Assembly: GCA_030680175.1 (NCBI GenBank)
Contig: JAUXWO010000076.1
Location: 1-64,000 of the forward strand
Direction of reading: 5' to 3'
Length of the DNA: 64,000 bases
From: Vicinamibacterales bacterium
GTDB lineage: Bacteria > Acidobacteriota > Vicinamibacteria > Vicinamibacterales > UBA2999
Under the pieces are notes generated by a model that was given only the letters and a program-made list of their open reading frames with translations, was not told the DNA's origin and did no database searches. Shown one piece after another: positions 46,498 through 64,000 of this stretch. The position numbers and the translations under genes are program-made. The stretch's first letter is position 1, and each line of letters opens with the position of its first letter.

Positions 46498-46867
46498 TCC
46501 CTGACGGGCCACGCGGAGGGCAGTGGCCTGGTCGCCCAGATGGCCTCGTCAAACAACGGGGGAAATTGCCCCCCTTGCGCCACCAAAACTGACCCCCTCC
46601 CAATTACTGTTTTCTGCAGCACAGGATGTAGACGTGCCACATGGACGACGACGATGGCATCGTCGGGAGTGGAAGTCGAGAGGGTAGAAAGAGCCAACGC
46701 GCCAGATCGCTGGTGGGGCAAGCCCTTCGACTCGTTCCGCTCGCTCCCTTCGACTGCGCTCAGGGAGCCCCGAGCATCGTCGAGGGGCTCAGGGCATTCG
46801 ACTCGCCAGATGGGCTCGCCATGAGCGAGCCTCCGGCTCGCCGCAGGCGATTTGGAGGCGAGTCGAA
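46498..46867 (+). other. Gap with dispersed repeats and IS-end-like remnant
   Basis: No gene seen. About 46556-46602, read on the minus strand, gives GGGGGTCAGTTTTGGTGGCG and GGGGGCAATTTCCCC, resembling the ends of IS21-family elements, without a transposase. From 46725 follow CCCTTCGACTCG / GCTCAGGGAGCC / GAGGGGCTCAGGGCA pieces and, at 46796-46868, the palindrome CATTCGACTCGCC ... GGCGAGTCGAATG, a second copy of the repeat at 45064. Confidence 0.4.
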
Positions 46868-46893
46868 TGGTGGAGGCGGCGGGAGTTGAACCG
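46868..46893 (-). other. tmRNA 3'-end fragment, probable att site
   Basis: The minus strand reads CGGTTCAACTCCCGCC followed by GCCTCCACCA, which is the T-loop, acceptor 3' strand and CCA of bacterial tmRNA (ssrA). The 5' half of the T-stem and the rest of tmRNA are absent, so this is not a working gene but the duplicated 3' end left by integration. Host repeats lie on the left (downstream of tmRNA), element DNA on the right. The intact tmRNA should be at the far end of the element, outside the window. Confidence 0.8.
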
Positions 46894-47200: not shown

Positions 47201-47467
47201 ATGGCGTCCAATGAACGTCCCCTGATCGATCCTTCGGCCCCGTTCCGCATCAAGGTCTACGCGAGCTATCGCGTGCGCGAAGTCGCCGAGCTCACCGGCA
47301 TCGGCGTCGACAAGGTGCGCGATCTTTTCGCCTCCGGCGAGTACGGCGAATGCATCAAGGTCGAGAGCCAGCGCACGCGGAAGTTCCGCAAGAACTACAC
47401 GACGCTGCTCATCCCCTATGACGCGCTGGCGAACTTCTTCAGCAGGTCCGTCCGCAAGAGCGCGTAG
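47201..47467 (+). CDS. Small helix-turn-helix protein
   Basis: 88 residues from ATG 47201 with ggaga 8 bp upstream; upstream in-frame ATGs at 47186 and 47192 are less well placed. The centre reads VREVAELTGIGVDKVRDLFA followed by a basic ESQRTRKFRKNYTTLLIPYD, like excisionase/MerR-type winged helices that read DNA with a helix and a basic wing. As the first gene beside the att site it could be an excisionase or an early repressor. Followed by a strong terminator. Confidence 0.7.
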   Translation: MASNERPLIDPSAPFRIKVYASYRVREVAELTGIGVDKVRDLFASGEYGECIKVESQRTRKFRKNYTTLLIPYDALANFFSRSVRKSA

Positions 47468-48633: not shown

Positions 48634-49056
48634 ATGAGCTATTCCGATCTCAAGTTCGCGGAGCTCCTGCGAAGGCTGAAGTCTCTTCAGGAGGAAGTGG
48701 TGACCTGGAACGGGTCCCCGCCCGCGTTGACCATGCAGGCCGTGGTCGCCATCGTGCGCGAGCTGAATGCCTACGGCATCGACGAGACCGATCCCCGGAT
48801 GATTCTCAACCGCTTCTTCCCGCCCAAGGAAAAGCGCCGCCGCGTTCGCGTTGCCGAAGTCATTCCCGAGCCCGTCGAACCGATCCGCGACAAGACCGAG
48901 ATCGAAAAACACCTGGAGGCGTTGACCGAGGAGGAAGCGCATGTCGTCGGTTATCTCGAACGCATTGGCGATGAGAAATCGGCCCGGGCCGCCAAAGAGC
49001 TCTACGCTGGCGTCCGCGCTCGATTTTTTAAACCGTCGCGATTCCACGAAACATAG
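48634..49056 (+). CDS. Small charged protein of the ATPase module
   Basis: 140 residues from ATG 48634 (gaggaagtgagc upstream). Helical N-terminal half (DLKFAELLRRLKSLQEEVVT), a basic-Pro centre (PPKEKRRRVRVAEVIPEPVE) and an acidic C-terminal half (EKHLEALTEEEAHVVGYLER). No recognised family. Its last 116 bases overlap the start of the first ATPase gene, so the two are translationally linked; a DNA-binding or adaptor role for the ATPase is conceivable. Confidence 0.65.
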   Translation: MSYSDLKFAELLRRLKSLQEEVVTWNGSPPALTMQAVVAIVRELNAYGIDETDPRMILNRFFPPKEKRRRVRVAEVIPEPVEPIRDKTEIEKHLEALTEEEAHVVGYLERIGDEKSARAAKELYAGVRARFFKPSRFHET

Positions 49057-50821
49057 CCTCCACCTCGGACGATCCGCAGCCGGGGAATTCCGGCTCGCCG
49101 AGGCGGACCGCAAGGGCCATGTCGCCATGTTCGGCGGCACCGGCACCGGCAAGACGAACGACATGGGCGTGATGCTCGTGCAGGACATCGAGCACTTCGA
49201 GGGCGTCGGGGTTATCTGCCCGATGAAGGAGCTCGCGGACCGGGCGGTGGAATTCTGCTACCAGGCCGGCAGAAAGGACGTCATCTATTTCGAGCCGGGC
49301 GATCCGAACTGGGTCACCCCGTTCGATCTCCGCGAGCTCGAAGGCGAACCCCTGGTCGCCGCCGAACGCACTGCCCAGGCCCTGCTTGCCGCCTGGGGCA
49401 TCAAGGACACGAACCTGATGCCTCAGCTCGAGCAGTGGCTGACGATCGTCCTCCTCACCTCCCGCGATGCGGACATCGACCTGCCGTATGCGTGGCATCT
49501 CCTCGAGCACAAGACCAAGCTCCGCGAGAAGTTCGCGCCCTACATTTCGGACGACGCCGTGCGCGAGCTGCTCCTCTCGCTCGACAAATACAGGCACCAC
49601 GATCTCGTGCACGAGGTCGGGTCCACCCTGCGAAAACTTCTGCGCTTCACCTTCGACGGGCCCGTCGCCCGGTCAATGGGCCTCGGGGCCAACGCCATCA
49701 ATTTCAAACAGATCATGGACGAGGGGAAGGTCTTTATCGCCTCGCTCCCCGAGGGTAAGGGCCTTTCCCAGCCGATGCAGAAGCTTTTTGGAACCCTCAT
49801 CGTGAACGGCTTCTACCACGCCGCGATGTGCAGGACCGGCGAGGAAAGGCCCTTCTACCTCTACATCGACGAGGCGCCGATGTTCGCCACGCACACCTTA
49901 GGAAACGCCCTCGATCAGTGCCGTCAGAAAAAGCTGTATTTCACCTTCGCCGTCCAGCGGCCCGGGCAGTTCAAATCGAAAGACCCGGAACTTTACGACG
50001 CCATCAAGAACGGCGCGCAGACCAAGATCGTGTTCCGCGCGACGAACCGTGTCGATGCCCTGGAGATGATCGACGACATCGTGTTCGGCCTGGCTGAGCC
50101 GCAGATCAAATACGAGCTCTGGGGCATCGCGTATCGGCCCGTGAACACCTACCTGCCCTCATATTCCTCGACCCAGGGCGGCGGCGACACCTGGGACCAG
50201 GGGGAGAGCTACGGCATCAGCGCCGGCAGCACGAACGGCGGCAGCCTCGCCAAGACCGACGCCTGGTCCGACAGCCGGAACGCGAGCGATACGAAGAAAG
50301 AAAACGAGGTCATCCACCACACCGACGCGACCGGCCTCGTGCTGCAGGGCGGCACCACGGAGGGCCGGAATTGGGCGACGAGCCTTGCCACCACGCAGAC
50401 AAAAGGCTTCAGGAACGGCGGGTCCGGGAGTTGGAGCGACACGGTGACCTGGGCCCCCGGCACCATCCACATCCCCGAGAACGAGCTGAAGCAGGTCGTT
50501 CTTATGAGCCTGGAAGACCGGCGGCGGATGGAATCGGACGCGCTCATGCAGTTCCCCGACGGCGCGAAGTTCGTGAAGGTGAAGGGCCAGGGCGCGGTGG
50601 CGGTGAAGGGCCCCCTGGTCGTGAACTTGTCAAATCCGGAGGACATCGTAGAGTTTAAGCAGACCCTTCATCGAGCCCATTCCGTTCCCCGGGCCGATGC
50701 CGACCGCATCATCGCGGCGAGGCGCAAGGAGATCGCCACGATCCCGCCGAAGGAGCCGACCTTCGACGACGACTACACCTTTTCACCTTCAACGTCATGG
50801 CTGAAAAACAGCTCCGATTGA
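48941..50821 (+). CDS. TraG/VirD4-like DNA-translocase ATPase 1
   Basis: 626 residues; ATG with strong gaggagg Shine-Dalgarno. Walker A GGTGTGKTNDMG at about 66-77, Walker B FYLYIDEAP near 305, and TFAVQRPGQF as the conserved Gln motif. The strand after Walker A reads VICPMKELAD where relatives have D-P-x-G-D. Residues about 405-510 are a Gly/Ser/Trp-rich insertion typical of this group. Such hexameric pumps couple or move DNA in conjugation; no other type IV secretion gene is seen. No membrane segment is obvious. The next gene overlaps by 25 bp. Confidence 0.8.
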   Translation: MSSVISNALAMRNRPGPPKSSTLASALDFLNRRDSTKHSLHLGRSAAGEFRLAEADRKGHVAMFGGTGTGKTNDMGVMLVQDIEHFEGVGVICPMKELADRAVEFCYQAGRKDVIYFEPGDPNWVTPFDLRELEGEPLVAAERTAQALLAAWGIKDTNLMPQLEQWLTIVLLTSRDADIDLPYAWHLLEHKTKLREKFAPYISDDAVRELLLSLDKYRHHDLVHEVGSTLRKLLRFTFDGPVARSMGLGANAINFKQIMDEGKVFIASLPEGKGLSQPMQKLFGTLIVNGFYHAAMCRTGEERPFYLYIDEAPMFATHTLGNALDQCRQKKLYFTFAVQRPGQFKSKDPELYDAIKNGAQTKIVFRATNRVDALEMIDDIVFGLAEPQIKYELWGIAYRPVNTYLPSYSSTQGGGDTWDQGESYGISAGSTNGGSLAKTDAWSDSRNASDTKKENEVIHHTDATGLVLQGGTTEGRNWATSLATTQTKGFRNGGSGSWSDTVTWAPGTIHIPENELKQVVLMSLEDRRRMESDALMQFPDGAKFVKVKGQGAVAVKGPLVVNLSNPEDIVEFKQTLHRAHSVPRADADRIIAARRKEIATIPPKEPTFDDDYTFSPSTSWLKNSSD

Positions 50822-51660
50822 ACGAGCACGACGAGGACATCTTCGAGTTGTTCGAGACGCGCAGCACGGTGATGGTCGAGGACGTTGTGCAGAAGTACAA
50901 CCGCAACCGCAGATCCGCGCAGGCGGGATTCAAGCGTCTCGTGGAAAACGGTATTTTAATCGCCGCGCCCGTATTCGAGGGAAGGCATTTCAAGGGCTAC
51001 GCCTACTCGATCCCGGTCCACGCCCGGCAGCGTGTGACGGAGCGCATCGGCGGAAAGAAGGTGTTCGTGCGCGACGACGCGCCGAAAGACCCGGACCATG
51101 AAGTGACGCTCGGCCGCATCGCGGACGCCGCGATCTCCCAGGCCGATGCAGCGGGCTTCGAGCCGCCGTTCATCGAGCGCAGGAAGAAGTTCCTGCACGA
51201 CAGCGTCACCAAGGACGGCGAGAAGATCTCCATCAACCCGGACCTGTTCATCGCGCTGAAGCCCAAGGACCGGGACGTGCTGCTCATCATGCAGTTCGAG
51301 AACGAGGGAAAGCTCGGACGCTACCGCGAGGGCAAGTCGCAGCAGGACCGCAAGATGGCCGGCTACTTCCATTACCGGAATTCCGGCCGCGCGAAGGAGT
51401 TCTGGGCGGGCCGTAACATCCCCGTCCACGATTTCAAGACCGGCTTCGGCCATCAGACCACGGAGAAGCGGAACAACTGGGCGAGACGGAACTTGATCCC
51501 CTTCCGCTACCGGATGTTTTGGGGCGCGGCGAATGAGGACTTAATCCGCGACTTCTACGGCGACGTGTGGATCACACCTGCGGAATTCAATTCCAGCTAT
51601 CCCGAGGAGAGCCCTCGTACAGGTTTCAAAAACTTGGTTCAATCAAAGAGGCCCCTTTAA
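50797..51660 (+). CDS. Replication-relaxation family protein
   Basis: 287 residues. The N-terminal winged helix (NEHDEDIFELFETRSTVMVE; NRRSAQAGFKRLVENGILI) is followed by a domain with INPDLFIALKPKDRDVLLIM and QFENEGKLGRYREGKSQQDR, KMAGYFHYRN, the pattern of replication-relaxation (PF13814) proteins, with PD...E-x-E residues reminiscent of PD-(D/E)XK nucleases. In plasmids the family is needed for replication and DNA relaxation. It is sandwiched between two TraG-like ATPases, so it may prepare the DNA that they move. Confidence 0.75.
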   Translation: MAEKQLRLNEHDEDIFELFETRSTVMVEDVVQKYNRNRRSAQAGFKRLVENGILIAAPVFEGRHFKGYAYSIPVHARQRVTERIGGKKVFVRDDAPKDPDHEVTLGRIADAAISQADAAGFEPPFIERRKKFLHDSVTKDGEKISINPDLFIALKPKDRDVLLIMQFENEGKLGRYREGKSQQDRKMAGYFHYRNSGRAKEFWAGRNIPVHDFKTGFGHQTTEKRNNWARRNLIPFRYRMFWGAANEDLIRDFYGDVWITPAEFNSSYPEESPRTGFKNLVQSKRPL

Positions 51661-51671
51661 TGGGAGCGGCT

Positions 51672-51733
51672 CGGGTGTCCCCGGACCGCGAACCTCCGGT
51701 CCCTGCTCTCGCCTGCGGGACACACCCGCGGAT
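51672..51733 (+). promoter_or_regulatory. Structured leader before ATPase 2
   Basis: CGGGTGTCCC at the left pairs (one 2-nt bulge) with GGGACACACCCG at the right, enclosing the hairpin GGACCG...CGGTCC. It fills the 106-bp gap before ATPase 2 and could be a cis-acting RNA structure. Confidence 0.35.
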
Positions 51734-51766
51734 GGAAGGGAGAGGTGGGGCTTGAGGACCACGAAC

Positions 51767-52996
51767 ATGGAAACCCTTATCGGTCATCGCATGGGCTACT
51801 ACAACCGCGCGCCGTTCATGGTGAACGCGGACAAGCACACGCGCATCGTGGCCGAGACCGGCACCGGGAAGAGCGTGCTGATGGGCGACATGATGATCGA
51901 GGACATGCGTGCCGGCCGCGGGTTGCTCGCCATCGACCCGAACGGCACGCTGGTGCGCCGTGCGCTCCGTTACGTTCCTAAGCACCGCATACACCACGTC
52001 CGATGGTTCGACCCGCTTTCTGATCGCCCGCTCGGGCTGACCGTTCTGCGGGGGAACACCCGCGAGGAAAAGCTGAAGCGCGCGGACCAGTACATCGACA
52101 CCATTTCAAAGGTCTTCGAGAACGGCTGGGGCGGTTTGAGCGATTACATCGTTCGGAATCTCCTCTACACGATCATCGAGGTTGAACCCGAGCCGACGCC
52201 CGCGCACCTGTATCTCGCGCTCATGTCCGAGGAATACCGGGACAGTTTATTCGGCCGAGCGACGTCGGAGAACTTCCGGCTTTTCAAGAACAAGTTCGAC
52301 GAGGAATGGAAGGCATCGGACCGCGAGAACCGGTCGGCGGCGCCGATGAACAAGAGCGACATTCCGATCGCGAGCTGGATCATCAGGGACGTGTTGTGCC
52401 AGGCGAACGGCATGGACCTCGGTGAGGAGATGGCGAACGGCTCGATCATCCTGTGTGACCTGGATAAAGGCAGGATTGGCCCGAAGGCCTGTAGCCTGTT
52501 TGGCCGTTTCCTGCTTCAAGAGGTTCTCTTCGCGGGTTCCGCCCGCGAGGAAGGTTCGAAGCCGTTCTCGCTCTACATCGACGAGCTCCACAACTTCGTC
52601 GACGTGGATGCGCTCGAGACGGTGCTTCAGGAACTCCGCAAGCGGAATGTCCGTGCCGTCGGAGCTGACCAGGAAGCTCGTTACATTCCCCGAGCCAATT
52701 TCACCACGACGATCGTCGGTGCCGTGGACCCCGTTTCGGCCGAGGAGCTCGCGGCGAACTTCGCCAAACCTGACCTCGCCGAGTTCCTCACGAAGATCCC
52801 GGCATTTCATTGGGAGGTGCAGACGAAGGATGAGAACGGCGTGAAGTCCGACCCGACGTTCGTAAAGGGACGCACGCCGCTCAAGCGCATAGGGACCGAG
52901 TATCCGGCGGCGCGCGCCATTCAATACAGCGAGGAGAACTACGGCACGCTGCGGGAAAAGGTGGAACGCGAGATCAACCGCTTATTGGCAGCCTAA
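51767..52996 (+). CDS. TraG/VirD4-like DNA-translocase ATPase 2
   Basis: 409 residues from ATG 51767 (gagg upstream); a TTG at 51752 is also possible. Walker A AETGTGKSVLMG near residue 30, then LLAIDPNGTLVRRALRYVP, which matches the DPHGDLV segment of TraG/HerA-like ATPases except that the last Asp is replaced by Thr. Walker B FSLYIDELHNF near 265. No large insertion, unlike ATPase 1, so the two are diverged paralogues rather than a recent duplication. Possibly they form a mixed ring or act at different steps of DNA transfer or packaging. Confidence 0.8.
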   Translation: METLIGHRMGYYNRAPFMVNADKHTRIVAETGTGKSVLMGDMMIEDMRAGRGLLAIDPNGTLVRRALRYVPKHRIHHVRWFDPLSDRPLGLTVLRGNTREEKLKRADQYIDTISKVFENGWGGLSDYIVRNLLYTIIEVEPEPTPAHLYLALMSEEYRDSLFGRATSENFRLFKNKFDEEWKASDRENRSAAPMNKSDIPIASWIIRDVLCQANGMDLGEEMANGSIILCDLDKGRIGPKACSLFGRFLLQEVLFAGSAREEGSKPFSLYIDELHNFVDVDALETVLQELRKRNVRAVGADQEARYIPRANFTTTIVGAVDPVSAEELAANFAKPDLAEFLTKIPAFHWEVQTKDENGVKSDPTFVKGRTPLKRIGTEYPAARAIQYSEENYGTLREKVEREINRLLAA

Positions 52997-53005
52997 GGAG
53001 GCCAT

Positions 53006-53221
53006 GTGGAATCTTTCGAATCAGCAGCGAAGGCGCATGAAAGTTTTCAGCACGCCCGGCAGCAAGCCCTTGCCGATCTCCAGGCCGAGCGCGATCGCAT
53101 CGACGAGCGCATCAAGCAAGTGCTCGCCTGGGGCAAGCCGGCGAGCCTGCCGGTGAAGGACAAGAAGCGCGGCCGGCCGAGGAAGGAGGACTTGCAGAAA
53201 TCGGCCAGCGTGCTTAAGTAA
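53006..53221 (+). CDS. Coiled-coil protein with AT-hook
   Basis: 71 residues, GTG with aaggagg Shine-Dalgarno directly after ATPase 2. A helical, charged stretch (QQALADLQAERDRIDERIKQ) is followed by KDKKRGRPRKED, an AT-hook of the GRP core type. Probably a small DNA-binding or nucleoid-like protein acting with the ATPases. Confidence 0.7.
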   Translation: MESFESAAKAHESFQHARQQALADLQAERDRIDERIKQVLAWGKPASLPVKDKKRGRPRKEDLQKSASVLK

Positions 53222-53436: not shown

Positions 53437-53461
53437 AAAGAGACCCCGCATAAGCGGGGTC
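53434..53461 (-). terminator. Bidirectional terminator between converging genes
   Basis: Stem GACCCCGC / GCGGGGTC with loop ataa, A-run on the left (CTCTTTTT on the minus strand) and tttt-type run on the other side. It ends the minus-strand primase gene and probably also the small plus-strand gene. Confidence 0.85.
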
Positions 53462-54488
53462 AAAACAGTTCATAGAGATCTTCCGGGGGCCAGCGATCGG
53501 GCTGGCTCCATTCTTCTTCATCAGGCAAGAACATCACCTTCACGCTCTCGAAGTTCCGCGCGAGGAGCTTGCAGCCGGCCTTCGCCGCCTCCTCCTTGGC
53601 GTTGCCGTCGAACATGAGGATGACGTGGCGGAAGTGCCCAAGAAGGTCGGCCTGCTCATCGCTCAGATTCTTCCCGAGCGTGGCGACGCCGTTCTTGATG
53701 CCGGCGCGGGCTAATGCGAGAACCCCCCACGGACTCTCCACGATCACGGCGGTGTCGAAGTCGTGGCTGACCACGCGCTCGATGTTGAACAGCTCGAGGT
53801 GGGCGTGGAATTCGGCGGGGAGCTGCCAGCGCGGAGGTTGGAACTTCGGATTGTCCTTCGGCTTCCAGGCCAGCTTCTCATCGACGAGCCTGCCGGAATA
53901 TCCGACGATCTCGCCCTTCACGTTGGCGATCGGGAACGCGATGCGGCCGGCGTTGTAGCCCTTCGAGGTGTAGCCGACGCCGAATTCCTCGCACAGCTTC
54001 GGATCGAACCCGCGCTCCGCAAGATACGGATACGCGTGATCGAGCTTCAGTTTGCCGTCCCAGTCCTTGCCGGCCAGCCTGGCCTTCTCGCGGAGAGGGA
54101 TGTTGACGAGCGGCACCGGGGCGGTATTCTGAGATTGCTCCGACTTCGCAACGGTTACCTCCTGCCTCGCGGCCGGGGGTTTTCCGTTTCCATTCCCGAG
54201 CCCGAACCATCCGTAGATGCGCTCGGCCGCTTCCTTCGGGCCGATGTTGTCGGTGAGCTCCACGAACTTCAGCGCACCGCGGCCCTTGGCCTTGCACGAG
54301 AAGCACTGGAAGCGCCACTCGGCATCTACGGAGAGATCACCGGGATCGGGTTTACCGGAATGCCCGTGGAACGGACAGACGGTGCGAAGGTTCTTCCCCT
54401 GCGGCCTCGCTTCGAGCGAGTACTGAGCGAACACCATCTCGGGCGTCACTCGTTCGCGGATCACGGCGAAGTCAAAACGGTGAGCCAT
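53460..54488 (-). CDS. DnaG-like primase (CHC2 zinc finger plus TOPRIM)
   Basis: 342 residues from ATG 54488, with aaaggaggt 4 bp upstream; an ATG five codons earlier overlaps that site. N-terminal CHC2 zinc finger: CPFHGH ... FQCFSCKAKG (residues about 38-75). Middle PYLAERGFDPKLCEEFGVGY is the primase catalytic-core start. TOPRIM: VIVESPWGVLALARAG (Glu) and VILMFDGNAKEEAAKAG (D-x-D reduced to D-G-N). The altered TOPRIM Asp is unusual. No helicase domain. It makes RNA primers for element replication; transcribed divergently from the Vsr gene. Confidence 0.85.
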   Translation of the reverse strand: MAHRFDFAVIRERVTPEMVFAQYSLEARPQGKNLRTVCPFHGHSGKPDPGDLSVDAEWRFQCFSCKAKGRGALKFVELTDNIGPKEAAERIYGWFGLGNGNGKPPAARQEVTVAKSEQSQNTAPVPLVNIPLREKARLAGKDWDGKLKLDHAYPYLAERGFDPKLCEEFGVGYTSKGYNAGRIAFPIANVKGEIVGYSGRLVDEKLAWKPKDNPKFQPPRWQLPAEFHAHLELFNIERVVSHDFDTAVIVESPWGVLALARAGIKNGVATLGKNLSDEQADLLGHFRHVILMFDGNAKEEAAKAGCKLLARNFESVKVMFLPDEEEWSQPDRWPPEDLYELF

Positions 54489-54578
54489 CAGACCTCCTTT
54501 CAATGGTCTGACCTCACCGTACCAAGCCCACGGAATCTGACAAGCGAAGGAGAACCGGGAGAAACGACAGCGCGAATA

Positions 54579-54599: not shown

Positions 54600-54655
54600 A
54601 AAAAATAAATGAAGTTTCGATTGACGGCGTGATGTGGCGGCGCGATTCTCATCTC

Positions 54656-55024
54656 ATGACGACGTTCGCTCTCGAACGCCGCGCCACGAAACCGGAACGA
54701 GCCGTCCGGGCTGCGCTCCTACAACTAGGGGTGCGCTTCGAATGCAACGTGCCGGGGCTGCCTGGAACTCCGGACATAGTGCTCTCCGGGAAAAGAGCCA
54801 TCTTCGTCCACGGGTGTTTGTGGCATGCTCACGACTGCCCGCGCGGCAGGGTGTTCGGGAACCCGCCGCTGAGACTTCAACAGGCAAAGAACGTCGCGCG
54901 AGATCTCGCGAATTGCTCAATGCTCGCTGATCGCATGCATTGGCGACTTTTGATTCTCTGGGAGTGCGAGACGAAAGACTTCGACGCGCTCAAAGAGCGG
55001 ATTCAGGCCTTCCTCAACGACTGA
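54656..55024 (+). CDS. vsr: Very-short-patch repair (Vsr) endonuclease
   Basis: 122 residues from ATG 54656; GTG/ATG at 54629-54632 would add nine residues. Motifs of Vsr: RRATKPERAVRAALLQLGVR, PGTPDIVLSGKRAIFVHGCL followed by WHAHDCPRG with the metal-binding His/Cys, and MHWRLLILWECET. Vsr nicks T:G mismatches made by deamination of 5-methylcytosine. The typical partner is a C5-methyltransferase, whereas the next methyltransferase here is of the N4/N6 type. Its end overlaps a small minus-strand zinc-ribbon frame. Confidence 0.85.
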   Translation: MTTFALERRATKPERAVRAALLQLGVRFECNVPGLPGTPDIVLSGKRAIFVHGCLWHAHDCPRGRVFGNPPLRLQQAKNVARDLANCSMLADRMHWRLLILWECETKDFDALKERIQAFLND

Positions 55025-55305
55025 ATCTTCCGCATCTCGTCCGGGCTCCGTTTGCGGTGCTTCCTCGCCTGGTCGACGAGCGCCGCGGAAAGCAACGTGC
55101 CCAGGTCGAAGTCGCTCACGGTGAAGCCGTCGAGCCACGCCTCGTGATTGCAGCTCAGGCACTGGATTCGGACCCGGTTCGCGTTCCATTGGCCGGTCGT
55201 CAGCCGGTCCGATCCGCATTGGCAAAATAGAAGTAACGCCACGTTCCGCGAGCACGATAGCATGGAGGGCGAAAGTAGAGGCGAAACCGTGACCTCTCCC
55301 GTCAC
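55003..55305 (-). CDS. Small zinc-ribbon protein (minus strand)
   Basis: Up to 100 residues; the ATG at 55263 would give 86. Contains LLFCQCGSDRLTTGQ ... IQCLSCNHEAWLDG, a CxC/CxxC zinc ribbon, and a helical basic tail (QARKHRKRSPDEMRKIQSLR). Convergent overlap of 22 bp with vsr. The ordered Cys pairs argue against it being noise. Function unknown. Confidence 0.5.
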   Translation of the reverse strand: MTGEVTVSPLLSPSMLSCSRNVALLLFCQCGSDRLTTGQWNANRVRIQCLSCNHEAWLDGFTVSDFDLGTLLSAALVDQARKHRKRSPDEMRKIQSLRKA

Positions 55306-55411
55306 CGGTCTGCGCGAGAATTCGTGACCTTATGTGTCGAAAACTGCGTCCGTCGGTCTATACTTTGGGCTCGAAAGACATGAGAGCCCCATATGCAGTA
55401 GGAGGCGGCCT

Positions 55412-56413
55412 GTGACGCCACTACCAGCCGCAGCTCTGCCCGTCGTCGACCTGCCCGAGCAGGACAACACGAGCGAGGCTCTCGCGACCCTTCTCGCGGC
55501 CAATCGGCAGTATCGCGCGAGCACGTGGCCGGCGCCCTACGACCAGACCACGCACCGCCTCCACCTGGGCGACGCCCGTGACCTCTCCTGGCTGGCCGAT
55601 GAATCGGTTCACCTTGTGGTGACCTCGCCGCCCTACTGGACGCTCAAGGAATACGAGGACCACGAGGGTCAAATGGGCGCGATCGAGGAATACGAGACGT
55701 TCCTCGACGAGCTCGACAAGGTGTGGAAGGAATGCGCTCGAGTGCTCGCCCCGGGAGGGCGGATTTGCTGCGTCGTGGGTGACGTTTGCCTGCCGCGTAA
55801 GAAGAACGGCCGGCACTACATCATGCCGCTCCACGCCGACATCCAGGTCCGCTCACGGAAGCTCGGTCTCGACTGCCTCACGCCGATCCTGTGGCACAAG
55901 ATCTCGAACGGGGTGACCGAAGCGGAGGGCAACGGCGCGGGCTTCTACGGGAAGCCCTATCAGCCTGGCGCGGTCGTGAAGAACGACGTCGAGTACATCC
56001 TGTTCATGCGTAAGGGCACCGGCTACCGCTCCGTGACGACGGTGCAGAAGGCCCTCTCGATGCTGACGAAGGAAGAGATGCAGTCCTGGTTCCGTTCCTT
56101 CTGGTCGGACATCAAGGGCTCATCGACCCGAGCCGGTCATCCGGCACCGTATCCCGCGGAGCTCGCGGAGCGACTCATCCGCATGTTCTCGTTCGCGGGT
56201 GATTACGTGCTCGACCCGTTCGCAGGAACGGCATCGACGAGCGTCGCCGCGGCAATTACCGGCCGGCACTCCATCGCGAACGAGATCGAACCGAAGTATC
56301 TGAGCTTGGCGCAACAGCGAATCGAACGGGAGCTCGAAAAGCTCCGTTTCTCTAGCACCTCGAAGGCGACCTACACCGTCGACAAGCCTTCGCGTCTTCG
56401 CTCCCGGAAGTAA
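55412..56413 (+). CDS. DNA N4-cytosine/N6-adenine methyltransferase
   Basis: 333 residues from GTG 55412, with aggagg 6 bp upstream; a longer frame from 55334 has no ribosome site. Catalytic motif IV TSPPYWTLKEY at about residue 70, then CARVLAPGGRICCVVGDVCL, and the SAM-binding motif I DPFAGTASTSVAAA near the C-terminus. Motif IV before motif I is the beta-class order. TSPPYW is frequent in N4-cytosine enzymes. It is followed 20 bp later by a candidate endonuclease, so a restriction-modification pair is likely. Confidence 0.85.
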   Translation: MTPLPAAALPVVDLPEQDNTSEALATLLAANRQYRASTWPAPYDQTTHRLHLGDARDLSWLADESVHLVVTSPPYWTLKEYEDHEGQMGAIEEYETFLDELDKVWKECARVLAPGGRICCVVGDVCLPRKKNGRHYIMPLHADIQVRSRKLGLDCLTPILWHKISNGVTEAEGNGAGFYGKPYQPGAVVKNDVEYILFMRKGTGYRSVTTVQKALSMLTKEEMQSWFRSFWSDIKGSSTRAGHPAPYPAELAERLIRMFSFAGDYVLDPFAGTASTSVAAAITGRHSIANEIEPKYLSLAQQRIERELEKLRFSSTSKATYTVDKPSRLRSRK

Positions 56414-57444: not shown

Positions 57445-57975
57445 ATGACCGATTTCGAGCGCCAGAGGCGCGAATTCAAGAAGAGAAAGGAAGCAATCCT
57501 CCGATTACGCTCCCAGCGCTTCACCCTCCAATACATCGGCGACCTTTACGGAATATCTCGTGAACGTGTTCGCCAGATCATCACTGGCTACGTCTCTCCG
57601 AGAAAGAAACCGAAGCCGCCGGCCGAACACAAGATCCTAACGCCTGCAAAGAGGCACGCCCTTGGTCTGCCGGCCCTTGATCCATCGATCGGAATTGCTT
57701 TTCCAAATGGTCAGCGTGATCGAATTCGAGAGATGGTTCGCATCCGCGATAATCGCACGTGCCAAATGTGCGGGAAGGTGTGGGTTCCCGGCACTCGTCG
57801 GCTAGATGTCCATCACCTCGACGAGCGCATGGAGGGCAAAAGCAAAACGGCCGGCATTACTCGTTACGACATCGATAACATGGACAAGATGATCACCGTC
57901 TGCCACAAGTGCCACTACAGCCTTGACTGTGTTAGGAAAAAGATTTCTAAAGGTCTCTTAGCCGCAGCTGCGTAA
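57445..57975 (+). CDS. HNH endonuclease with sigma-region-4-like HTH
   Basis: 176 residues, ATG with gaggga just upstream. Residues about 15-50 (AILRLRSQRFTLQYIGDLYG, ISRERVRQIITG) look like the sigma-70 region-4 helix-turn-helix. Residues about 100-165 form an HNH nuclease: CQMCGK, LDVHHLDERM, DNMDKMITVCHKCHYSLD, with two zinc-binding Cys pairs. The HTH would select the site and the HNH cut it; this fits phage packaging-associated or homing-type nucleases. Confidence 0.8.
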   Translation: MTDFERQRREFKKRKEAILRLRSQRFTLQYIGDLYGISRERVRQIITGYVSPRKKPKPPAEHKILTPAKRHALGLPALDPSIGIAFPNGQRDRIREMVRIRDNRTCQMCGKVWVPGTRRLDVHHLDERMEGKSKTAGITRYDIDNMDKMITVCHKCHYSLDCVRKKISKGLLAAAA

Positions 57976-58575: not shown

Positions 58576-58641
58576 GTGAAGTTCGCCTCCGACCCTTCCG
58601 AGCCAATCACATCGCATGAAAAAGGAGATCGTCAGCATTGA
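58576..58641 (+). CDS. Possible leader peptide for the nuclease gene
   Basis: 21 codons from GTG 58576 with a strong aggagga Shine-Dalgarno. It overlaps the ATG of the nuclease gene (58616), which has no ribosome site of its own, so translation of the leader may deliver ribosomes to it. Confidence 0.3.
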   Translation: MKFASDPSEPITSHEKGDRQH

Positions 58642-59548
58642 TGAGAAGCGCGGCATCGCCCGCGTCACGACCGCAGATGAACGCTGGTATACGCGCGAGA
58701 CCACGAACCCGCAAACCGGCCTTCCGGAGATCGACTTCCGCAAGTCCGTAACCTACATCGGCCACTTCTATCCGAAGGGCAAGGGGTTCGAGAATTGGAT
58801 GAAGAAGAACGGCGAGGAAGCGGACATGCTCGTCGCACTCGCCGGAGAACGAGGCTCGAAGGTCCACCAGGCCATCGAGGCCCTGAACAACGGCGAGCAA
58901 GTGAAGATGACCGACACGTTCCTCAACACGAGGACGGGCGCGGTCGAACAGCTCACGCCGGAGGAATACGGCGCGGTCATGTCTTACCGCGACTGGTGGA
59001 TGACCGAGGGCTCAAAGGAATACGTTATCCTCGAAGCCGAGCAGACCATTTGGCCCGAGGGCAAAGGTGCCGAGCCGGGCGGCCCGCTCCATTTCGCCGG
59101 AACGCTCGACCTCCTAGTCAAGCGCGTCGCTGACGGCGCGATCGGCATCATCGACATCAAGACTTCGAAGGAGGTCTATACCGGCCACATCATCCAGCTC
59201 TCCGCTCTCCGCGAAGGCAAGAAGGCCGAAGGTGTGGACGTGCAGTTCCAGGCGATCCTCCAGGTCGGCTACAAACGGAACAAGCAGGGCTTCAAGTTCA
59301 CCGAACAGGAGCACCGCTTCGACCTCTTCCTGGCCGCGAAGAACATCGCCGATTACGAAACGTCCGGCGAGGCTCCGCTCCAGCGCGATTACCCGCTCGC
59401 CCTCACCCTCGGCCTTCCGAAGAAGAAGAGGGCCATCCCTTCCGTCACCGAACCCGCCGCTGAATCCGCACCAATCGCGGAGGAAGCTCCGGAGCAGCCA
59501 GAGCCGGCAAAGGTCGCAAAGAAAAAATCACCCAACAAACATGGATAA
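58616..59548 (+). CDS. PD-(D/E)XK nuclease, RecB/Cas4-like
   Basis: 310 residues. Core: early His in GERGSKVHQAIEALNNGEQV, LEAEQTIWPEGKG, FAGTLDLLVKRVADG (Asp), IGIIDIKTSKEVYTGHIIQL (D-x-K then Gln), which is the RecB/Cas4-type motif series His-Asp-(D/E)-x-K-Q. The last 50 residues are a Pro/Ala/Glu linker with a basic end. Phage relatives act as exonucleases in recombination. Followed by an OB-like protein overlapping by 8 bp, as expected for an exonuclease/single-strand-binding pair. Confidence 0.8.
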   Translation: MKKEIVSIDEKRGIARVTTADERWYTRETTNPQTGLPEIDFRKSVTYIGHFYPKGKGFENWMKKNGEEADMLVALAGERGSKVHQAIEALNNGEQVKMTDTFLNTRTGAVEQLTPEEYGAVMSYRDWWMTEGSKEYVILEAEQTIWPEGKGAEPGGPLHFAGTLDLLVKRVADGAIGIIDIKTSKEVYTGHIIQLSALREGKKAEGVDVQFQAILQVGYKRNKQGFKFTEQEHRFDLFLAAKNIADYETSGEAPLQRDYPLALTLGLPKKKRAIPSVTEPAAESAPIAEEAPEQPEPAKVAKKKSPNKHG

Positions 59549-62462: not shown

Positions 62463-62486
62463 GGGGGAGCGCAGTGCTCCCCCTTT
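62463..62486 (+). terminator. Rho-independent terminator
   Basis: Stem GGGGGAGC / GCTCCCCC with loop GCAGT, then TTTG; 14 bp after the stop codon. Confidence 0.75.
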
Positions 62487-62491
62487 GCACG

Positions 62492-62519
62492 TTGACGGAT
62501 TCCGCACGCGCGGTAATCT
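62492..62519 (+). promoter_or_regulatory. Promoter for rusA and packaging genes
   Basis: TTGACG, 16-bp spacer, TAATCT, directly after a terminator and 17 bp before ATG 62536. Confidence 0.6.
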
Positions 62520-62535
62520 GAACTCAATCCCCTCC

Positions 62536-62955
62536 ATGACCGAACCGATCGTTTTAAAGCTCGGACAGGTGTGTACGTCGGGTTCGGATTGCCGGCGGAT
62601 TCCGCACAATTTCCAGAACAAGCGCGGTCCCTGGCAGGTGCGCTGGAAATGGAATACCGCCTGGAAGGGCGAGGTGAGCGCCCGCTGGTTGGAGATCCGC
62701 ACGAAGGTTCTCGCGAGCGGCATCCGGACGCCGCTCGAACGTCCGCAGATCACGTTCACGTTTTACAAGGCGGGCGTCCAGTTCGATTGGGATGGATTGC
62801 GCGGGGCCGCGAAGCCCCTCCTCGATGCGCTGACCGGCCGCGGCATCGGGCTCATCGTGGACGATAGCCCGGACTACATCCCCGAGCCGGTCTACAAGCA
62901 GATGAAGGTCGGAAAGATTGCGGAGGAACGAGTGGAGATCCAAATATCAACATGA
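62536..62955 (+). CDS. RusA-like Holliday junction resolvase
   Basis: 139 residues from ATG 62536. The C-terminal half has the RusA active-site pattern: FDWDGLRGAAKPLLDALTGR (Asp, Asp, Lys, Asp) and GLIVDDSPDYI (Asp-Asp). The N-terminal half is longer than in E. coli RusA and contains CTSGSDCRRIPHNFQNKRGP. It would resolve branched DNA before packaging. Promoter and terminator upstream make it the first gene of the packaging operon. Confidence 0.8.
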   Translation: MTEPIVLKLGQVCTSGSDCRRIPHNFQNKRGPWQVRWKWNTAWKGEVSARWLEIRTKVLASGIRTPLERPQITFTFYKAGVQFDWDGLRGAAKPLLDALTGRGIGLIVDDSPDYIPEPVYKQMKVGKIAEERVEIQIST

Positions 62956-63088: not shown

Positions 63089-63385
63089 ATGGCAAGAGGC
63101 GGAAAACGAGAAGGAGCAGGACGAAAGAAAGGCGCCGCCGCGCTCGCTGCTGAGGAGTATCGCAAGTTCATCGTCGAGGAGGTCCGGAAGAATAAGAAAG
63201 AGATCGTCGCCGCGCAGATCAAGAAGGCGAAGGACGGCGACACCCAGGCGTTCAAAGAGCTGAACGATCGCGCGCTCGGCAAAGCACCTCAGGGCATAGA
63301 CCTCACATCGAAGGGCGAATCGCTCGGAAAGGTCGTGATGCTGCCGACACGGCATGCAGACGGAGGTTCTGTGGTCCCCCAATAG
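63089..63385 (+). CDS. Terminase small-subunit-like protein
   Basis: 98 residues. Begins ARGGKREGAGRKKG, the Gly/Lys-rich motif frequent in proteins just before terminases, then a helical region VEEVRKNKKEIVAAQIKKAK, FKELNDRALGKAPQGIDL. Position directly before the large subunit, with a 32-bp overlap, supports a DNA-recognition role in packaging. It could also be a DUF5681-like protein. Confidence 0.6.
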   Translation: MARGGKREGAGRKKGAAALAAEEYRKFIVEEVRKNKKEIVAAQIKKAKDGDTQAFKELNDRALGKAPQGIDLTSKGESLGKVVMLPTRHADGGSVVPQ

Positions 63386-64000
63386 CTCGCCGCAGCGGAT
63401 GGTCCTCCAGCTCAAACCGGAGGACTTCTTCGAAGTCGGTTATGGAGGTGCGAGAGGCGGAGGGAAAACGGCCGCCGGCATCGCCTGGCTCCTCTACGAC
63501 AAGGACAACCCTCATCTTCGAGCCCTCATCATTCGTAAGCAGTCTAAGGACCTGAACGACTGGATCGATCGCGCGCGGCAGATCTACGAGCCGCTCGGCG
63601 CTGTCATCAAGGGCAACCCCGCGGAGTTCCACTGGCCCTCAGGTGCGATCTTCCGCACGGGCCACTTGAACGACGCGGGAGCGTATAGCGCCTACGTCGG
63701 TCACGAATACCAGCGGATGCTCATCGAGGAGCTGAACCTCATCCCGTCCGAGGAGAACTACCTGAAGCTCATCTCGTCCTGCCGTTCGACGGTGGCAGGC
63801 CTCCGGCCGCAGGTGATGAGCAACTTCAACCCGTCGGACGCGGGCTTCTACTGGATCAGGAAGCGGTTCGGGCTCCACGGCATTCCGAGGAAGGCCATCA
63901 CGATGGCCGACCCTTCGACCGGCCTCCGCAGGATCTTCATCCCGGCGCTCACGAGGGACAATCCGGCCCTCGCCAGCGATCCGCAATACAACGCGTTCCT
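63354..64000 (+). CDS. Terminase large subunit, N-terminal part
   Basis: Open from ATG 63354 to the window edge (215 codons), so the C-terminal nuclease part is missing. Walker A VGYGGARGGGKTAAG near residue 30, coupling and Walker B region RMLIEELNLIP near 120 with the catalytic Glu, then SSCRSTVAGLRPQVMSNFNP. This is the packaging ATPase of tailed phages and identifies the element as phage-derived. Head and tail genes are expected to follow outside the window. Confidence 0.85.
   Translation, partial: MQTEVLWSPNSSPQRMVLQLKPEDFFEVGYGGARGGGKTAAGIAWLLYDKDNPHLRALIIRKQSKDLNDWIDRARQIYEPLGAVIKGNPAEFHWPSGAIFRTGHLNDAGAYSAYVGHEYQRMLIEELNLIPSEENYLKLISSCRSTVAGLRPQVMSNFNPSDAGFYWIRKRFGLHGIPRKAITMADPSTGLRRIFIPALTRDNPALASDPQYNAF

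Follow-up and report, generated by a model that had tools for sequence, protein, structure and literature searches.

Why would a temperate phage carry genes that resemble the DNA-processing part of a conjugation machine? The question is raised by a stretch of DNA from a Vicinamibacterales bacterium of the phylum Acidobacteriota (GenBank assembly GCA_030680175.1), in which five consecutive ORFs between positions 48634 and 53221 had been predicted, from the sequence alone, to form a conjugation-type DNA-processing module inside an element that also bears a terminase gene. The window that we analyzed is the first 64 kb of the 103-kb contig JAUXWO010000076.1; contig and window numbering coincide, and we read the contig beyond 64 kb as well. 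We find that the core of the module, a relaxase-family replication-relaxation protein (RR) encoded between two different VirD4-like ATPases (A1 and A2), lies in a temperate prophage and that the same gene order recurs in other phages. The explanation we prefer, which we put at a little short of an even chance, is that A1-RR-A2 is a relaxosome-like cassette: RR would bind and nick phage DNA, the two motors would pump it, and the cassette would serve replication or processing of the phage genome.

All five predicted ORFs are present, and all are on the forward strand. The first (SM, 48634-49056) encodes a 140-residue protein that belongs to no family and overlaps the start of the gene for A1 (48941-50821), a 626-residue protein with a Walker A motif (GGTGTGKT), a Walker B motif (YLYIDE), and a Ser/Gly-rich C-terminal tail. 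RR (50797-51660) and the 414-residue A2 (51752-52996; Walker A, AETGTGKS) follow, and the module closes with a 71-residue AT-hook-like protein (53006-53221) whose weak Pfam match is below the cut-off. The Walker motifs of both ATPases are intact, and the frames of A1, RR, and A2 are all open. The proposed identity of the motors as TraG/VirD4-like ATPases is borne out by strong matches of both to phrog_5156; in Pfam, A1 lies just above the cut-offs for TrwB_AAD_bind and T4SS-DNA_transf, and A2 lies below both. A search of the PDB with a profile of the ATPase family placed TrwB on top, and the closest structure to an AlphaFold model of A1, the core of which is more confident than the tail, was again TrwB (E 6.5e-9), followed by DotL, VirB4, and HerA. 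A1 is thus predicted to have a TrwB-like RecA-type ATPase fold, and A2, judged by its sequence only, is assigned as a VirD4-like ATPase. An identification of A1 as VirB4 is not favored, as the TrwB and TraG-type profiles score higher. The final Asp of the DPxGD segment is indeed absent from both ATPases, as had been pointed out, but this is no diagnostic trait because the relatives likewise have DPHGT.

The naming of the central protein as a replication-relaxation protein also stands, by way of its relatives. A Pfam scan of the window RR gave no match at all, but a profile built without it from relatives, the majority of them above the PF13814 cut-off, finds it at 91.6% in hhalign (E 8e-7), and a wider profile that includes phage and plasmid members finds it at 95.5% (E 1.4e-8). 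A sister profile, against which the window RR scored 74.5%, served for a shuffle control; 20 shuffled sequences reached at most 0.6%. The cut-off of the family PF13814 (Replic_Relax) is passed by the proteins in the equivalent position in the related phage contigs L049 and L054, described below, and by the RR proteins of two elements that also encode a primase and a VirD4-like ATPase (L035 and L036); the equivalent in L040 falls below it. The predicted structure of RR combines a winged helix with the element order of a PD-(D/E)XK-like domain, Foldseek matches it to winged-helix proteins, VC1899, FokI, and XisH, and the putative catalytic residues Asp149 and Lys186 are kept. PF13814 appears in the literature as the MobC relaxase superfamily (PMC5357655). 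Relaxases of the MOB_C type belong to the PD-(D/E)XK class, and one of them, TraX, has an N-terminal winged helix (PMC12857230). At the level of profiles, RR is therefore best described as a diverged member of the Replic_Relax/MOB_C relaxase family. Because that family is of the MOB_C type, the statement in the original prediction that no MOB-type relaxase is present was mistaken.

The element that carries these genes is an integrated, intact-looking temperate prophage of a soil-type Acidobacteriota bacterium. It spans 40.8 kb (contig 46867-87702) between exact 26-bp attachment (att) repeats, attL at 46867-46892 (no strand) and attR at 87677-87702, right of the window. Both copies equal the 3' end of a transfer-messenger RNA (tmRNA) gene, the whole of which ARAGORN places at contig 87678-88024, making this 3' end the insertion site. 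A tyrosine integrase gene on the reverse strand (contig 86491-87594; phrog_1, E 3e-40) adjoins attR, and the G+C content is ~60% between the repeats versus about 67-70% outside. The large terminase subunit gene (TerL, forward strand) occupies 63354-64000 in the window and is complete on the contig at 63354-64781. Right of 64 kb, where a virion morphogenesis region had been suggested as a check, we find a portal-like protein of 664 residues with no PHROG match, a major capsid protein (contig 69091-70284; phrog_267, E 4e-19), and a lysozyme-type protein for lysis. Integrase, att sites, terminase, and capsid genes, the marks of a temperate phage, are hence all present.

Two other identities for the element can be set aside. 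The proposal of a phage-plasmid is rejected: the element is integrated at the tmRNA gene with att sites and an integrase, and no plasmid replication or partition gene was recognized among the window prophage proteins searched. An integrative and conjugative element with a degenerate terminase is rejected because virion and lysis genes continue right of the terminase and no type IV secretion system (T4SS) gene was recognized from the window to the contig end. The reported absence of VirB4 is confirmed on the contig, and a search for its family, PF03135, was likewise negative in the window genome (G000), in genome G254, and in other genomes with the RR and ATPase families (three others in all); a control genome was positive. 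The central idea of the original prediction, a conjugation-type DNA-processing module in a terminase-bearing phage element that lacks a T4SS, is accordingly supported.

Profile matches also confirm that the primase, the RusA-like protein, and the terminase share one element with the module. The DnaG-type primase (zinc ribbon, DNAG_N, and Toprim; 53460-54503, reverse strand) lies directly beyond it, and a phage exonuclease (phrog_298; 58616-59548, forward strand) and a RusA-like Holliday junction resolvase (62485-62955, forward strand) lie farther right. The suggested survey for the same gene order was fruitful. A1-RR-A2, then the opposite-strand primase, then the exonuclease recur in L040, a Thermoanaerobaculia prophage of the same phylum (genome G254), and in L054, an IMG/VR phage contig; L049, whose contig begins inside the module, retains RR-A2-primase-exonuclease. 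There are, then, three complete cases with two motors and one partial case. The window exonuclease is 58-67% identical to those adjoining the module in L040 and L049 and ~39% identical to that of L054, and the module proteins of these phages are only about 20-45% alike while the order with primase and exonuclease persists. The A2 proteins of all four form one clade (98/98 support) apart from single-ATPase relatives. Portal families and terminases differ among the two-motor phages, and because the terminases fall into different PHROG groups, the cassette travels with the replication arm and not with the virion genes. The overall layout of L054 also matches that of the window prophage: module and integrase lie at opposite ends.

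A further contig, L112, has a terminase-like gene and, near it, a broken A2 frame with 63% identity to the A2 of L054. The ratio of nonsynonymous to synonymous substitution rates between the two is ~0.15 over the aligned part, with synonymous sites saturated, which indicates purifying selection on A2 in these relatives. Single-protein searches gave no matches for A1 in viral and genome collections and in phages, nor for the exonuclease in viral contigs. In two IMG/VR contigs (L073, 7449-10385; L072, 7932-10394), a lone VirD4-like ATPase stands near a tyrosine recombinase, with a protein of 155-185 residues before it and no RR between.

Conservation of this kind bears on whether the prophage might instead use the module for defense or superinfection exclusion, with ring ATPases passing DNA to a nuclease in the manner of HerA-nuclease systems. 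HerA-type structures are among the A1 matches, both ATPases have weak PADLOC matches to mad8 (A1, E 5e-9; A2, E 1e-7), and the module sits at the prophage edge, a usual place for such accessory genes. TrwB is closer to A1 than HerA is, however, RR has no PADLOC match, no complete known defense system was found, and the order with primase and exonuclease is conserved across phages whose module proteins have diverged as far as described above. A role in defense is possible but weakly supported, and we consider it improbable.

Relatives with a single motor are more widespread. RR matches occur in 14 of 396 genomes of the phylum, at least eight of which (the window genome included) have a VirD4-like ATPase within ~11 kb, and one Acidobacteriota integrative element has ATPase, RR, helix-turn-helix, and integrase genes in a row. 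Outside the phylum, a VirD4-like/RR pair is kept in 18 SPO1-like records (some of them duplicate entries) and in the Bacillus subtilis phage PJN02. SPO1-like phages are lytic, and SPO1 itself is among the standard phages of the laboratory. In SPO1, profiles identify gp27.3 as an RR protein (E 2e-16) and gp27.4 as the motor (E 3e-41); their genes overlap (L106, 4747-8284), and gp27.3, like the RR of PJN02, is annotated as "replication initiation by nicking." The RR gene is annotated merely as hypothetical in several SPO1-like records, for example SP8. A tblastn search of phages with the L054 RR found none, though profiles do detect the phage members. The order in PJN02 is partition, ParG-like, TrwB-like, RR, and Xer recombinase; on the Embleya plasmid NZ_CP108778 it is PrgI, XF1762-family protein, ATP-binding protein, VirD4-like, and RR; and the B. 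subtilis plasmid CP121709 carries a DUF87 ATPase, RR, a conjugal transfer protein, and an ATP-binding protein together.

Such pairs have also surfaced in the literature. The available text of three reports describes a type IV secretion protein adjoining a replication-relaxation protein in tyroviruses (PMC9703825), a Replic_Relax protein near partition genes in phage Izhevsk (PMC7685451), and, for phage 268TH007, an FtsK-like/RR insertion (PMC9476937); as far as that text goes, the authors offer guesses at a role, without experiments on the genes. The one-motor pair is consequently a known and annotated but unexplained cassette of Bacillus phages and plasmids, which limits the novelty claimed for the module and makes the pair, in that sense, an established phage cassette. 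The two-motor A1-RR-A2 sandwich is a variant that we did not find described in the collections and literature searched.

What might the cassette do? We infer that it is more likely to start or process phage replication in an infected or induced cell than to transfer DNA to another cell, because lytic phages keep the pair, a primase and an exonuclease adjoin it, the window proteins have no membrane segments, and no T4SS was found. The winged helix of RR would bind a site on the phage DNA after excision, when the DNA is circular, and one strand would be opened by the PD-(D/E)XK-like domain. The A1 and A2 ring motors, possibly with separate tasks, would load at or beside RR to form a complex and pump the DNA, on which the neighboring primase and exonuclease could then work.

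Several observations weigh against this explanation. Both structural models are of low confidence (mean predicted local distance difference test of 61 for RR and 60 for A1). The A1 proteins form long branches in the tree, so their common descent is less sure. A search for an array of repeats like that of an origin of transfer (oriT) found only weak two-copy matches. In the best alignment, the position of a Glu that 14 relatives all share is taken by Gln166 in the window RR, and the nuclease of this particular protein may for that reason be inactive; a shifted register would place Glu168 or Glu170 at the invariant position. The possible loss of a catalytic Glu would also suit a reading of the module as a plasmid maintenance or partition cassette that was left behind and has no function in this phage today. 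A motor gene stands beside one annotated as encoding a partition protein in SPO1, PJN02, and D6E (with RR too in SPO1 and PJN02), and two of the reports cited above (PMC9703825, PMC7685451) read the region as plasmid-derived. Among the window prophage proteins searched, however, no partition or plasmid replication gene was recognized, the three frames are open with intact Walker motifs, and A2 is under purifying selection in relatives; we regard this as the least probable of the explanations.

The last observation against a purely intracellular role comes from the relatives. In L040 and L054, a membrane-protein gene lies directly 5' of A1 and is coupled to it, an arrangement that fits transport across a membrane better. 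It would agree with a mobilization module with RR as the relaxase and A1 and A2 as coupling proteins, the parts that MobC and MobB play for CloDF13; the excised prophage would be passed on to a T4SS supplied by a helper element, so that the phage could move both in particles and by conjugation. The MobC superfamily assignment of PF13814 (PMC5357655) favors such a module, CloDF13 and other MOB_C plasmids carry a coupling-protein gene of their own (PMC7431656), the pair stands beside annotated conjugation genes on the Embleya and CP121709 plasmids, and ATPase and RR occur with an integrase in integrative elements of the phylum. No hydrophobic or transmembrane segment was detected in A1, A2, RR, or SM, however, so the N-terminal membrane domain of coupling proteins is missing, and since CloDF13 MobB requires its transmembrane domain (PMC7431656), mobilization by the window version alone is less likely. 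PF03135 is found in neither G000 nor G254, the pair is retained by lytic SPO1-like phages, and the linkage is to phage replication genes instead of transfer genes. On balance we think mobilization rather unlikely, although it is the strongest rival to processing of phage DNA inside the cell.

Phages whose hosts are far apart, lytic as well as temperate, retain motor-plus-relaxase pairs. Should the pair serve to start or process phage replication, phage DNA would be handled in a manner resembling a relaxosome; should it instead carry DNA into other cells, prophages would gain a route of conjugation. We tentatively suggest, with the chances against it, that some temperate phages form a lineage, with members in Acidobacteriota and among environmental phage contigs, in which a relaxase between two different coupling-protein motors is a dedicated machine for the phage's own DNA, be it for relaxase-started replication or for conjugation-like transfer of the prophage.

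The prophage carries other genes of interest. At its left edge, a small helix-turn-helix protein (47201-47467, forward strand) is probably excisionase-like, judging from sequence and place. The early region (54629-56413) encodes an N6/N4 DNA methyltransferase next to a nicking endonuclease of Vsr-like type (PADLOC Vsr, E 5e-15), and at 57445-57975 a sigma-70 region 4-like helix-turn-helix is fused to a weak HNH endonuclease match. Near the integrase are two reverse-strand genes (contig 82967-84648), one of which matches PADLOC NsnA (E 2e-35) and phrog_2598 and the other of which encodes a 212-residue protein without a family; the pair is perhaps an accessory defense. The protein encoded at contig 81128-81946 is conserved, with counterparts of 45-49% identity in two further elements of the phylum (L039 and L042) and in the L054 phage.

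Among named systems, the plasmid CloDF13 offers a PD-(D/E)XK-type relaxase with a VirD4-type partner, as in the window (PMC12857230, PMC7431656), and TraX of pAD1 shares with the RR model an N-terminal winged helix ahead of such a domain (PMC12857230). Both plasmids are transmissible, and the membrane domain of MobB is essential, whereas the window module combines two motors with the lack of a membrane segment and of a known oriT. The Embleya and CP121709 plasmids place the same two families adjacent or close to each other, but with PrgI, conjugal-transfer, and further ATP-binding genes alongside and with one VirD4-type motor. SPO1-like gp27.4/gp27.3 and PJN02 resemble the window in that RR comes immediately after a motor gene in a phage genome, with profile homology for SPO1 and SP8; they differ in having a single motor of more than 900 residues and partition-type genes alongside, and the sequence similarity is very distant. 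In Bacillus phage G, whose genome is about 500 kb, the RR-like gp146 lies on the other strand and a few kilobases away, and gp155 is annotated as VirB-like, yet this phage too resembles the window in that two ATPases of secretion type, gp155 and the VirD4-like gp156 (L063, 3217-7359), are encoded not far from the RR-like protein.

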